Below, piece after piece: positions 21,831 through 27,190 of a DNA stretch of 32,991 nt. The notes under the pieces were generated by a model, which was not told where the DNA came from, made no database searches, and was given only the letters and a program-made list of their open reading frames with translations. The stretch comes from a virus. Location: IMG/VR virus record IMGVR_UViG_3300049491_000413, positions 1 to 32,991 of that record. One strand, given 5' to 3'. Position numbers and translations under genes: made by a program. Positions within the stretch are counted from its first letter, which is position 1, and every line of letters begins with the position of its first letter.

Positions 21831-21932
21831 TTAGGTCGCCACCTTTCCCCGCATGGTTGACGGCTTGGGTGCCGTGAGTGTCTTGCCGCCGAAATGCGCA
21901 CCACCGAAATAGCCCGCACCGAACACTGTCAT
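21831..21932 (-). CDS. 33-residue Gly-rich small protein
   Basis: ATG 21932 overlaps the tailspike stop (ATGA). The frame ends in TAA at 21831-21833, directly before the next GTG. Product MTVFGAGYFGGAHFGGKTLT..., with the GYFG/HFGG repeat pattern I recall from very small actinophage structural-region proteins. Its mRNA end carries the next gene's Shine-Dalgarno (GGGGAAAGG). Probably real, function unknown. Confidence 0.5.
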   Translation of the reverse strand: MTVFGAGYFGGAHFGGKTLTAPKPSTMRGKVAT

Positions 21933-23983
21933 CCGACCGCTACCGATCGCGCACACTCAAGCCATAGTGCAGCAGAGTTATCCCATTCGAACGTGACATT
22001 GGTACGGCGACTTGCCGTCGTGTCGGAGGGTCCGGCCGCGCCATTGATGAATCGACAATTGCTTGGCCACGCGTACGTGCGACCACCAGTCGCGTCCTGA
22101 TTCCACTCAATGGTCAACACCATTGACTGGCCGGAAGGTGGCGGATTGGTGATGCTGGACGATGTGGCGTTCGCCTGTAACGTGATAACGTGCCGATTAG
22201 CGGACTGCGCATTCATTGTCACGGCACCATTGGCAGCAAGCGTCTGCGTGGCTGCACCGAATGATGTGCGTCCCGTAAAGGTTGCCTGTCCTGCCGTGAC
22301 GCCACCACCTGCGATAGTGAATCCGCCCGCCGTACCGAGCGCGCCCCACTGCTCGACAGTGACTGACGGCGAGCCGCTGCCGGTGTTCAGGTTCGCCAGC
22401 ACGGCACTCGACCCAAGAGCATTGCGCGCCTTGACATACAGGCTCGGCGACGTAGTACCGACAGTGGTCAGCACGCGGTCCAAGTTGCGCCACGATGCGG
22501 CCTGGCGCGAACCACTCGGGTTCTCTACCGAGACATTGTCTCCCGAGCCGACCTTGCACAGATACTTGGCACGTGGTGGCGAGCCGGACGCGTTGACAAG
22601 AATGGTCGGTCCGCGGAAATGAACTTCATCAGAGATGACGTTGACATTGTCATCCACGCCTATCTCGACGAATGCTTCTATTTCACCACTGTATCCTTGC
22701 AAGTGTTCGAACCATGATGCATCGAATGAGATGCCGGACGACCCGGCCGACCACGACGACCCGATACGCACGGGATTGACGGCAGCCGCGCCGTTGCCGA
22801 CGAACCGCGCGCCATAGATGCTTGCGCCACGCACCATGTCAAGGTGCATTACGCGGTCACAGTCGAACGCATAGAGACCAATGATTGTCGGCTGATCGGA
22901 GCGCGGTCCGAGATACATGCCGGTTGCGCACCGAGACAATTGCAACCCGATGAATGTATTCAGATCGGACTGCACGCCGAACACGCCGGTTGCGAATCCC
23001 TTGATACTGACGCGATGTAGCTGCAGGTCGCCACCGCGCCAATCCGCCACGGCCGTACTACCGGCCAAGTAGGTGCCCGTCCCGTTGGCAAGTGTGGTCA
23101 CGCCGTTGAGTGTTTCGATGTTGAGATTCTCAAGCATGAGTGACTCGACGCCGTCATACCCTACGCCATCCCACGGATCTACGGTGTAAGTCGCAGTCGG
23201 ACCCACTGCCGTACTTGCGGCCGTTGCCAGCGTGACAGATGACGATGAGTTGAATGTGACCACGCGCGCGGTGAGCATTGAACCACCCACGCCAGCGCCC
23301 GCTACACCGATGTACCGCGAGACCAGTTCCGCAGTGAAGCCCGAACCGATGAGCGTCGTGGACGCAGAGGACATCGCACCGTCGGCGCGAGTCACTGCAG
23401 TATCCGCACCATTCGTTAACCACGTGCCCGCACTCGGCATGCGCACAGTCGTCCTAGCACGTGACGAACCGACGATGCGTAGGGCACGATCAGTGGTGAC
23501 CGTGCCGGGAGCGCAGTCATAACTACCACCCGGAATGGCGACCATCCTCACGCCCAGGGAGAGTGCTTGACTGACAGCGTCCTGCAGCGCAAGTTGATTG
23601 GCGGCCGACGTAGCCGACGATGCCCAACCGTGGTCAGCGACATTTACCATAGGCAGGCGTGCCGCCGTGGCAGTCGACCCGGAAGCGCGTTGCGGCAACG
23701 CATCCCACATGCCGGCACTGACACCCTGATAGATGACGTCACCAACACCTATCGCTCGAGAAGCAGAGTTCTCGACCGCGCGCGTGACTGTGAGTACGTC
23801 GCCGGTAATGGCAATGACGTCAATGACTTCCGCATTGACGGGGGTGGCCGTTGACAGCGCTGGCGCGACGAATGCTCGCCCGAGTGCGAACCGCACACCC
23901 TCACCAGACAGCACGGTGACGGACGTACCGGAGGTAGTAGGCGATGGCGCGTTCAGGACATTGGACGTAGGGAAGTTTTTCAC
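21929..23983 (-). CDS. Tailspike with right-handed beta-helix (pectate-lyase-3-like)
   Basis: GTG 23983 is preferred because GGAAGGGGG lies five bases upstream and the GTG overlaps the previous stop; GTG 23989 is possible but too close to that site. The product has about 684 residues. An N-terminal attachment part (to about 110) is followed by VADHGWASSATSAANQLALQ, VRMVAIPGGSYDC and RALRIVGSSRARTTVRM, the entry to a pectate-lyase-3-like fold. Beta-helix coils run to about residue 480. The C-terminal jelly-roll-like domain ends with TNVTFEWDNSAALWLECARS. It probably binds or cleaves a host surface glycan. Confidence 0.75.
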   Translation of the reverse strand: MKNFPTSNVLNAPSPTTSGTSVTVLSGEGVRFALGRAFVAPALSTATPVNAEVIDVIAITGDVLTVTRAVENSASRAIGVGDVIYQGVSAGMWDALPQRASGSTATAARLPMVNVADHGWASSATSAANQLALQDAVSQALSLGVRMVAIPGGSYDCAPGTVTTDRALRIVGSSRARTTVRMPSAGTWLTNGADTAVTRADGAMSSASTTLIGSGFTAELVSRYIGVAGAGVGGSMLTARVVTFNSSSSVTLATAASTAVGPTATYTVDPWDGVGYDGVESLMLENLNIETLNGVTTLANGTGTYLAGSTAVADWRGGDLQLHRVSIKGFATGVFGVQSDLNTFIGLQLSRCATGMYLGPRSDQPTIIGLYAFDCDRVMHLDMVRGASIYGARFVGNGAAAVNPVRIGSSWSAGSSGISFDASWFEHLQGYSGEIEAFVEIGVDDNVNVISDEVHFRGPTILVNASGSPPRAKYLCKVGSGDNVSVENPSGSRQAASWRNLDRVLTTVGTTSPSLYVKARNALGSSAVLANLNTGSGSPSVTVEQWGALGTAGGFTIAGGGVTAGQATFTGRTSFGAATQTLAANGAVTMNAQSANRHVITLQANATSSSITNPPPSGQSMVLTIEWNQDATGGRTYAWPSNCRFINGAAGPSDTTASRRTNVTFEWDNSAALWLECARSVAVG

Positions 23984-26070
23984 GTCCACCCCCTTCCGCG
24001 CATGCCGGGATCATCAGTGTCGCGTCCGTGAATTGTGGCTGTATTCTGCGGTCGTCCGCGCATGGCGCCAGGGACGAATACGACTTGCGCCGATCCGATG
24101 AACTTCGGCACGCGTATCGTGAGACGCAGCACGGGACGTGATGCGTGGGTGGCCGGGGTCAGTCGACGTCGCCAATCCGCCCCGGCGATAAGCAACACGT
24201 CCGCCGCGACCGGGGGCGGCACGTAATAACGCAGTGCCGGTACGGTCTGCACTCGCCAGCCGACGAGGGCCTCGCGGTGTGTGGCGAACGCCAATGCTGC
24301 GCCGAGTAGCGGCACGTCCAGTAGTGCCGTGTCGAGTAGTCCGACGATGGATCGGTAGTCGTGCTGTGTCGGGACGGACCTGCGGTCGACGTGTGTGGCC
24401 GCGCGATTGAGCGCCTGCCAGATCGCACTACCCACACCGTAGGCAAGGGTGAGTGGATCCGTCGGCGGCACTTGCGGGTATGTGCTCGGGTCACTGATCA
24501 GGGACTGCTGACGGGGCACTGAGCGGCGGTCCGTCGGCCACGTCCTGGCGACGCTCAGCGGTAGCCAGGCAGCCATCGTCGGATCGGCGTCCGAGAGCTG
24601 GACGCTCTGATCGGCGAGAGGTTGCCGCTGTGAGGGGAGGACGCGCCGGCCCCCGTGCGTGGCGGCAACATTCGCAGTCAGCCACGTGAGCAGCGCACCC
24701 GAGAGGGTCGGATCGCGCTCAAGCACGACGTCGATCTCGACGGGTACATGCTGCTGTGTCGGGACACTGTGTCGATCCGCATGCGTAGCGGGTGTCAGTC
24801 GCGCCGTCCAGCCATATCCGGCCTGCGTGACGTCAAAATCGCTGACCACGTCAGACAGTGGCGGACCGACGACGCTGACAAGGCGTAGCCACATCGGACG
24901 AGAATGCGTGGCAGCAACGGATGGGAGCAATGCTGGCACTACATCAGGCTGCACATCGGATGATGGTAAGTCGAAGGCGCGCAGGACGCGCGTCCAGGAC
25001 GGGCGTGCATGCGTCACGGCGACGGGCAGTGTCAGTGACGACGTCACGTCAGGCTGTGCAGCAATCGTCGATACGTCAACGCACGCACGGACTTGCGTCC
25101 ATGACTGTACCGGCGTCAGTCGCGGCCACCGTGGCGCGACAGTATGCAAGGTCGGGACGTCGAGACTGACCGGGGCGGGGTCGACGCCGGAGGGAGTACG
25201 TGTCTGCGACCATGCATATGACGTGCGCCCGACGGTCGGTGCTGCCGGAACCGACCGTCGCAGTAACGGCATGGCCAGCGGCGGGAGGGAAGTCGACTGA
25301 TTGACCCGAGCGCGAACCTGCGACCATGCGTGTGACGTGCGCGCGGCAAGGTGTGTCATCTGTCGCGCGACGTACGGGACCGCGACGGCACCACCAGCAT
25401 TGGGCACGATCTCGATGTACGCCCACGCACCATTGGTCGTGTTCGTCGGTGTCGTCATGCCAACAGTCGTGTTACCGCCATTCGTTCCATCGGCGGTTGT
25501 CCTGCGTCCGAAACCGTACGTGATCGCTGAAGCTACGTCCGCGGAACCGATCGACGTACAGCCGGTTGCGGCTGTCTGGGCGCCTCTTAGATCCCAATCA
25601 CAGTCAACAATAAGGCCCCAATTGCTGGCCGCCGTGCCGACATATGTGGAAGACAGTGCAGTAATCGCCGTGCCCGATGCCCCGCCCGATGTGCCAACCG
25701 TCGGCGTTCCGGTATCGGTCAGCACGCCGACGTAGAATGCGGACTCTCGGGCGCCTGACGCCGTGCCCGATGTGACTGTGACCGTGCGAGATGCGGATGA
25801 CGCGGTAACCGCAGTCCAGATCGCTGCCTGTCCGTCCACCGTTGGTGTGCCGGACGAACGATGACGCCACTGACGTTGAGTCCACGTCAGGCCACCCGTG
25901 TCACTGATCGACGGAGCGCCCGGGTCGGTATTCGCCTGCGTATCGCCAGACCACATTGCGACAAGCAATGCACCGGATGGCGCCGTGAACGACGCCGTCG
26001 TTATGGTAGCCACCGTTGCACTTGTGTTGGTGACAATAGCGGGAGTGCTGCCGTCAATCGCCAGTGTCAC
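23980..26070 (-). CDS. Repeat-rich fibre-like structural protein
   Basis: A 696-residue protein. Residues 1-225 form a beta domain of the Ser/Thr/Gly-rich kind seen in phage fibres (TASFTAPSGALLVAMWSGD, then NGAWAYIEIVPNAGG). From about 239 to 650 it consists of degenerate 35-44-residue repeats. These have ATHxxR or similar (TH pairs at about 239, 353, 388, 429, 471, 559, 597, 641), often followed by RRSVPTQ and a hydrophobic/Asp-Pro segment. The C-terminus is basic. The repeats are not from a family I recognise. It overlaps the tailspike start, and both are probably part of the host-recognition apparatus; fibre versus capsid decoration cannot be settled. Confidence 0.65.
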   Translation of the reverse strand: MTLAIDGSTPAIVTNTSATVATITTASFTAPSGALLVAMWSGDTQANTDPGAPSISDTGGLTWTQRQWRHRSSGTPTVDGQAAIWTAVTASSASRTVTVTSGTASGARESAFYVGVLTDTGTPTVGTSGGASGTAITALSSTYVGTAASNWGLIVDCDWDLRGAQTAATGCTSIGSADVASAITYGFGRRTTADGTNGGNTTVGMTTPTNTTNGAWAYIEIVPNAGGAVAVPYVARQMTHLAARTSHAWSQVRARVNQSTSLPPLAMPLLRRSVPAAPTVGRTSYAWSQTRTPSGVDPAPVSLDVPTLHTVAPRWPRLTPVQSWTQVRACVDVSTIAAQPDVTSSLTLPVAVTHARPSWTRVLRAFDLPSSDVQPDVVPALLPSVAATHSRPMWLRLVSVVGPPLSDVVSDFDVTQAGYGWTARLTPATHADRHSVPTQQHVPVEIDVVLERDPTLSGALLTWLTANVAATHGGRRVLPSQRQPLADQSVQLSDADPTMAAWLPLSVARTWPTDRRSVPRQQSLISDPSTYPQVPPTDPLTLAYGVGSAIWQALNRAATHVDRRSVPTQHDYRSIVGLLDTALLDVPLLGAALAFATHREALVGWRVQTVPALRYYVPPPVAADVLLIAGADWRRRLTPATHASRPVLRLTIRVPKFIGSAQVVFVPGAMRGRPQNTATIHGRDTDDPGMRGRGWT
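24144..25356 (-). repeat. About ten degenerate protein repeats
   Basis: Coding for tandem units with landmark TH dipeptides spaced 35, 41, 42, 38 and 44 residues, or double and triple that where a unit has drifted. The best-conserved copies read ATHADRHSVPTQQ (about 428-440), ATHGGRRVLPSQR (470-482) and ATHVDRRSVPTQH (558-570). Confidence 0.65.
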
Positions 26071-26402: not shown

Positions 26403-26717
26403 TCAGACCCTGAGATCGTTCGCCAGATCGGCGATGCGCTCACCGTGCGCCGTGAGCAGACGTGCGTATTCCATCCCTAGTGCAATGGCGGCAGTGTAGG
26501 AATCGGCTTCTCGCAGCACGTCTGACAGCATCCGATCAGGTGCGAGCAACCGCACGTGCCATGCCTCGCGACTCTCGTGCGTCCGCTCCTCGGGCGTACC
26601 GTCGACTGTGACCGTCTGCGTGCCGCCACCGATCGGCACACTGTCCACTGTCGCCGCGAGCCGACCATCAGTGCATCGCACTTCCGCTGCCGTGATGACG
26701 ACGACCGGGTCACTCAC
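26403..26717 (-). CDS. Small head-region hypothetical protein
   Basis: A 104-residue acidic protein whose start overlaps the upstream stop. Strands (VVVITAAEVRC, TQTVTVDGTPEER) are followed by helices (MLSDVLREADSYTAAIALGM, LLTAHGERIADLANDLRV). It is probably a particle or assembly protein by position; no family is recognised. Confidence 0.55.
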   Translation of the reverse strand: MSDPVVVITAAEVRCTDGRLAATVDSVPIGGGTQTVTVDGTPEERTHESREAWHVRLLAPDRMLSDVLREADSYTAAIALGMEYARLLTAHGERIADLANDLRV

Positions 26718-27190
26718 GCAGCGAACTCAAGCCACTCGACAGTGGACGTAAGGGCGACTGCGGCAGGAGCCGTCGCAAGCTTGACCGCAGCGAATCCGGC
26801 AGCACTGCCGACGAGCAGGAATCGAGCCTCTGGCACCGGAAGCCACAACACGCCATTGACGACGTTGAATCCTTCCGTCCATGGCGTGGCAGTGATGGTG
26901 CCCTCTGCGGACGCGGTCACGCCCGTTGCTGACGTGCCACCCACGCACTTACTCGCCTGCATTCCGTTGCCCAGTGGGGCGGGCGTGGCGGACGTGACGG
27001 TACTTGCCGTGGAGTTCCGGTTGAATTGTGCGCGGGTCTGACCAGTAGTGGTCACGTTGTCCTGCGAAACCTGAACGCGCGTGAACTCAGCCGCAGCCGC
27101 CGCAGGGACGAGCACTTGCTGAAGCGTGATGGCGGTCGACGTCGACACACCCTGTCGGATGACACTGTATGCACCGGACGGCGCGGCCAT
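26714..27190 (-). CDS. Probable structural protein (head decoration or tail-fibre like)
   Basis: A 158-residue Ala/Thr-rich beta protein (STSTAITLQQVLVPAAAAAE, GTITATPWTEGFNVVNGVLW, EARFLLVGSAAGF). The composition, strands with few charges, suggests an exposed capsid accessory or decoration protein. Encoded two genes after the capsid. No specific family. Confidence 0.55.
   Translation of the reverse strand: MAAPSGAYSVIRQGVSTSTAITLQQVLVPAAAAAEFTRVQVSQDNVTTTGQTRAQFNRNSTASTVTSATPAPLGNGMQASKCVGGTSATGVTASAEGTITATPWTEGFNVVNGVLWLPVPEARFLLVGSAAGFAAVKLATAPAAVALTSTVEWLEFAA

Follow-up and report, generated by a model that had tools for sequence, protein, structure and literature searches.

The window analysed here, all 32,991 nucleotides of one single IMG/VR record, encodes a modular protein (hereafter REP) in which an N-terminal beta domain is followed by an array of degenerate repeats. 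These repeats constitute a previously undescribed family that has so far been seen in uncultured phages only. We consider REP to be probably an adhesion fibre, in which an exchangeable N-terminal binding domain sits on a repeat array that serves as length-tolerant stalk or multivalent tether, and assign this reading a probability of about 0.58. Throughout, contigs and loci used for comparison are labelled with L-numbers (e.g., L087).

Genomic context of REP

The structural block of the window is siphophage-like and contains genes for the terminase, portal, protease and major capsid protein (PF05065, phrog_10), several small genes, REP and a fibre-like protein, followed by connector, tail tube, tape measure and tail genes and an amidase-like lysin; window genes without a family match were named by reading the sequences. 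The REP gene (Table 1) has the major capsid gene on one side and the connector gene on the other, and its end is overlapped by the start of the gene for the fibre-like protein. A homologue of the latter in L002 resembles pectate lyases (PF12708, E 1e-4, under the Pfam cut-off). Spike-like or beta-helix-like proteins that directly adjoin REP (L109:4817-5899, L104:4771-5970, L097:8249-9994 and window:21929-23989) vary from phage to phage. Near the lysin side of this block, the presence of a large serine-recombinase-like protein of 481 aa (window:6892-8337) suggests that the window phage is temperate.

Table 1. Positions of REP, its parts and the neighbouring genes in the window.
Feature	Position	Strand	Evidence or remarks
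Fibre-like protein next to REP	21929..23989	-	PHROG 9017 tail fiber, E 4e-5
REP gene (modular repeat protein)	23980..26070	-	ORF, GTG start, 696 aa; homologues in 16 further contigs
C-terminal tail, residues 651-696	23983..24120	-	Varies among relatives
Last repeat unit, residues 600-650 (...ADWRRRLTPATHASRPVLRL)	24121..24273	-	Profile 20.3 bits
Partial unit, residues 571-599 (GLLDTALLDVPLLGA...ATHR)	24274..24360	-	Profile 13.3 bits
Repeat unit, residues 523-570 (SDPSTYP...DPLTLAYG...ATHVDRRSVPTQ)	24361..24504	-	Profile 37.5 bits; best conserved
Repeat unit, residues 484-522 (...DRRSVPRQQ)	24505..24621	-	Profile 6.4 bits; conserved in L087
Repeat unit, residues 441-483 (...AATHGGRRVLPSQRQ)	24622..24750	-	Profile 19.7 bits
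Repeat unit, residues 402-440 (...TPATHADRHSVPTQQ)	24751..24867	-	Profile 19.2 bits
Degenerate sub-type repeats, residues 226-410	24841..25395	-	Lag-35 self-similarity; matched by L087; weak profile matches
N-terminal beta domain, residues 1-225	25396..26070	-	AF2 beta strands; swapped in relatives
g26074, 108 aa	26074..26400	-	E 9e-30 to 2e-54 in REP loci; 0/80 capsid-relative loci
g26403, 104 aa	26403..26717	-	E 2e-14 to 9e-40 in REP loci; 0/80 capsid-relative loci
g26714, 158 aa	26714..27190	-	Highly conserved; identity as high as 87% in L087

Repeat architecture

The degenerate repeat architecture that an initial annotation had described was confirmed. Every TH position that it listed (residues 239, 353, 388, 429, 471, 559, 597 and 641) is exact, and residues 226-696 contain six ATH tripeptides, against the 0.15 that composition alone predicts (P about 2e-8). 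The periodicity is likewise borne out, both by a peak at lag 35 in the self-similarity of the C-terminal region (z 6.5-7.6) and by a repeat profile that was trained and iterated solely on proteins of other phages, with the window protein left out. This profile matched six stretches within residues 412-645 of REP with a full score of 85.8 bits, far above the best of 1000 shuffles (10.2 bits) and the best domain found in the reversed sequence (1.1). Chance similarity within a low-complexity region, an explanation prompted by degenerate units in a repeat region rich in A, V, P, L, R and T, is refuted by this shuffle control and by the 44-residue period of the L099 relative (z = 25), and its probability is negligible.

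About ten units had been proposed, of which five to six are well supported, while the four or five located upstream (residues 226-401) are seen weakly by the profile. The latter belong to a more degenerate sub-type that is shared with L087, whose repeat region is 39% identical over 537 residues, and residues 226-410 comprise about 5 units of 27-52 aa each with the pattern W-x-Q/R-x-R ... D-x-S ... PLL ... TH. The motif RRSVPTQ, which was said to follow ATH often, is found as an exact heptamer once (residue 563), whereas the shorter RRSVP occurs three times, in addition to DRHSVPTQQ. A counterpart similar to the last unit (600-650) is present in L087, L088, L090 and L093.

Relatives and distribution of the repeat family

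Querying with the whole REP protein returned no relatives through peptide scans of IMG/VR and genome_contigs or tblastn in phages, and relatives were reached through the conserved neighbour g26714 first and a repeat alignment second. A scan for g26714 (26714-27190) retrieved eight contigs, six of which encode a REP relative at the same place (E 1e-94 to 7e-9). The first repeat alignment added L096-L101, L103, L105 and L107, and a second one L118. In total, these routes yielded relatives of the same architecture in 16 IMG/VR contigs besides the window, all from uncultured phages, with 6-19 profile matches per full-length relative. The clearest array is that of L099, which is nearly regular with a 44-residue period (z = 24.9) and the consensus DPxLLxTALLExxLLGGAxxxxRxxxPATHxDRRxVPQQRxYxS; a longer sub-type of the repeat reads SDPSFYPxxAPxDPLTxAWGAGGxYWHLYNRAAxxxDRRxVPQQR. 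Whole units have been gained or lost between relatives, as units 3 and 7 of L100 both match unit 2 of L098 at 80-82%.

The earlier statement that the signature belongs to no known family agrees with the absence of any clear match in Pfam, PHROGs, NCBIfam and PDB sequences. Window REP had no matches in the first three of these libraries, and ten relatives gave weak, scattered matches to curated families (e.g., phrog_36833 at E 1.8e-4, where no individual stretch passed). For the repeat family, the best E value among PDB sequences was 0.69. It was also not found in 50,697 phage records or 72,556 plasmids, nor, at peptide-pattern sensitivity, in the genome collection.

Two further peculiarities were observed among the relatives. 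In L093 (5974-9264), a second copy of an N-type beta domain is located mid-array. Short, differing tandem motifs close the REP proteins of L092, L090, L103, L098, L101 and L088 (e.g., TTARPGGGTTARPSTGITARP; TWETDSTGTWDTD), as if the C-terminal end were also modular.

Exchange of the N-terminal domain

Two independent phage pairs, alike in other respects, have exchanged just the N-terminal domain, with the break at the junction between domain and repeats. The DNA of L105 and L092 is about 92% identical ahead of the gene start and from codon about 218 to past the gene end, with no blastn match in the stretch that separates these two parts; at the protein level, the repeats are 88% and the N-domains 25% identical. 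A matching right-hand break is seen between L096 and L103, at codon about 231, and their left break precedes the L096 gene by about 340 bp; their repeats are 63% identical, while similarity of their N-domains is undetectable. These breaks also show that the boundary of the beta domain had been placed correctly at 225 residues. More generally, the N-domains of relatives are mutually distant or lack detectable likeness. The N-domain of the window shares 52% identity with that of L096 and 39% with that of L092, and the repeats of the window and L096 are 36% identical.

The N-domain of L100 matches three PHROG families of minor tail proteins (553, 2106 and 382, with E 6e-21, 6e-18 and 2e-6), and in two of the three, phrog_2106 and phrog_382, the matching part sits C-terminally. 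The window's own N-domain had no match to these three families. In L038, a different protein matches phrog_6813, likewise at the C-terminal end. Because the relatives keep their repeats and swap the front domain, the exchange points to a putative host-binding fibre with interchangeable tips, as far as can be judged from the sequence comparisons.

A linked gene cassette independent of capsid type

In every locus with enough flank, REP is accompanied by g26714, g26403 and g26074. No function could be assigned by family to these three cassette genes, and all 80 loci that were fetched by capsid relatedness lack them. REP and the cassette are both missing from these loci, whose capsid proteins reach 71% full-length identity, and this is therefore evidence for an independent cassette. 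A profile match to the capsid family of the window was obtained among carriers for L098, L100 and L101 only, with some carrier loci being too short to include their capsid gene. The capsid of L092 is a distant member of phrog_10, and that of L087 belongs to a different family (phrog_1650). Given two capsid families among the carriers and 80 capsid relatives without the cassette, the cassette is passed on independently of the capsid, at least in part. It lies close behind the capsid gene in L087, L088 and L090 and, in most loci, ahead of the genes for tail tube and tape measure; in L091, g26714 is located behind tail genes and the contig ends ahead of any visible REP.

Genes resembling glycosyltransferases, epimerases and methyltransferases were noted upstream of the cassette in several carriers (L092:7010-7906, L094:744-4655 and L096:557-3955), among them an L092 glycosyltransferase assigned to phrog_14945 (E 2e-40). 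These genes are a hint at virion glycosylation. Capsid relatives without the cassette encode other proteins in the same region (L062:3938-5773, L004:7956-9740, L038:5097-6668, L075:5053-6162 and L022:6733-7854), in which lectin-like or beta-rich N-domains are followed by unlike arrays with periods of about 35, 20, 18 and 21 residues. The architecture of an N-domain plus repeats thus recurs in capsid relatives with other repeats. The 35-residue RR...P..Q repeats of L062 were tested as possible homologues of the REP repeats and rejected, as there is no profile similarity.

Structure prediction

For window REP, AF2 predicted beta strands within residues 11-118 (pLDDT about 55-83), and pLDDT values in the 30s for the repeats. 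Five tandem L099 units modelled as a monomer had a mean pLDDT of 43 (alignment of 12 sequences). Low AF2 confidence is compatible with an extended chain, with an obligate oligomer or with just a shallow alignment. The initial annotation had envisaged a repetitive rod; the repeats are upheld, but as AF2 gave the monomeric repeats no confident fold, a rigid stalk is a conjecture. Foldseek with the N-domain gave no PDB match at E < 0.01 and nothing convincing overall. Two viral Foldseek matches below 0.001 were distrusted in view of an rmsd of about 40-50 A, and a profile comparison with one of them, Clavibacter phage CN1A_51, revealed no similarity.

Proposed function and alternatives

We infer that REP is located on the virion, with an N-domain that binds the host or glycans, repeats that serve as a stalk and a C-terminal part that faces the particle, and we assume that the N-domains of the relatives share a binding function. 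The N-terminal beta domain would then act as an exchangeable surface-recognising module for host or environmental glycans, and the array of about 44-residue repeats would provide a stalk that tolerates changes in length or a tether with multiple contacts. The repeats and the three small cassette proteins encoded upstream, possibly a base or chaperones, would hold the N-domain on the particle, with the C-terminal part oriented toward it. A receptor-binding fibre had been one of two functions offered in the initial annotation, and it is supported indirectly by the N-domain exchange, by the related domain in PHROG minor tail proteins and by the fibre-like or beta-helix-like neighbours of REP. It is possible, and we put it forward tentatively, that the four genes together form a portable adhesion cassette that is passed among phages of differing capsid type and consists of the three small proteins and a fibre of inverted polarity, with a C-terminal repeat anchor and a plug-in N-terminal receptor binder.

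As a specific case of the adhesion fibre, REP might be an appendage of the neck or tail tip, i.e., a tail or collar fibre with an unusual gene position. The resemblance of the L100 N-domain to minor tail proteins, the location of the L091 cassette gene after tail genes, the fibre-like neighbours and the independence from capsid type are all in keeping with such an appendage, but we regard it as somewhat doubtful because the cassette mostly precedes the tail tube and tape-measure genes, unlike the usual genes for tail-tip fibres.

The other function offered initially was a decoration array, in which each repeat would occupy a capsomer or capsid site and REP would be spread over the head to display its beta domain. 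The REP gene position between the major capsid and connector genes and the proximity of the cassette to the capsid gene in L087, L088 and L090 would agree with this arrangement, as would the extended look of the repeats, which resemble a wrapped chain of short linear motifs; moreover, carbohydrate-binding accessory proteins that aid attachment do occur on phage heads (PMC7602432). A capsid-keyed array is nevertheless the less likely of the two and on the whole unlikely, because more than one capsid family (phrog_10 and phrog_1650) is found with the cassette and close capsid relatives lack it, and the placement of g26714 behind tail genes in L091 also speaks against it.

Far less probable is a role outside adhesion, with REP as an intracellular, intracapsid or nucleic-acid-binding repeat protein. 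Its virion location is itself deduced, and the repeated motif DRRxVPQQR contains arginines, but DNA binding through these was judged unlikely from the net charge of the repeat region, which is near zero (-18 to +14), unlike that of a DNA-binding array. Cassette exchange of the N-domain is, furthermore, typical of surface recognition, and the L100 N-domain resembles minor tail proteins.

While a fibre as such is a known kind of protein, REP adds an undescribed repeat family and an apparent natural plug-in system, in which a constant repeat scaffold has a fixed junction for different beta domains. If the adhesion fibre reading is true, a phage lineage could change its adhesion target without rebuilding the tail, and the adhesion unit could be transferred between capsid types. 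The repeat profile also provides a means to annotate proteins that the searched libraries leave unnamed.

Comparison with known systems

Accessory head proteins with a role in host adhesion, often through attachment to carbohydrates, include T4 Hoc, T5 pb10, SPP1 gp12 and the phi29 gp8.5 head fibre (PMC7602432), and these resemble REP in its proposed role. REP differs from them in having no Pfam or PHROG match to any, in being encoded with a cassette that is not tied to one capsid type and in having a putative virion location. The likeness to the minor tail proteins of PHROG 553, 2106 and 382 is limited to the N-domain of L100, as the repeats do not match. The proteins of L062, L004, L038, L075 and L022 share with REP a beta-rich or lectin-like N-terminal part, a subsequent repeat array and a location downstream of the capsid gene, but their repeats of about 18-21 or 35 residues have another consensus. 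In Clavibacter phage CN1A, proteins annotated as tail fibre and phosphodiesterase are encoded before the tape-measure gene, a position comparable to that of REP and in keeping with the fibre reading; its region 30000-46000 (L112) holds two SGNH-hydrolase tail-fibre proteins and a glycerophosphodiester phosphodiesterase beside a capsid-like gene.

In the usual tail fibre, the N-terminus is a conserved anchor and the variable tip is C-terminal. REP resembles the receptor-binding tail fibres and spikes of phages in its modular build, its repeat region, its recombinationally exchanged domain and its fibre-like neighbours. It differs from the usual tail fibres in its undescribed repeat family, in a gene that usually lies in the head-connector region and in the reverse order of its parts, with the exchanged domain at the N-terminus and the conserved part at the C-terminus.
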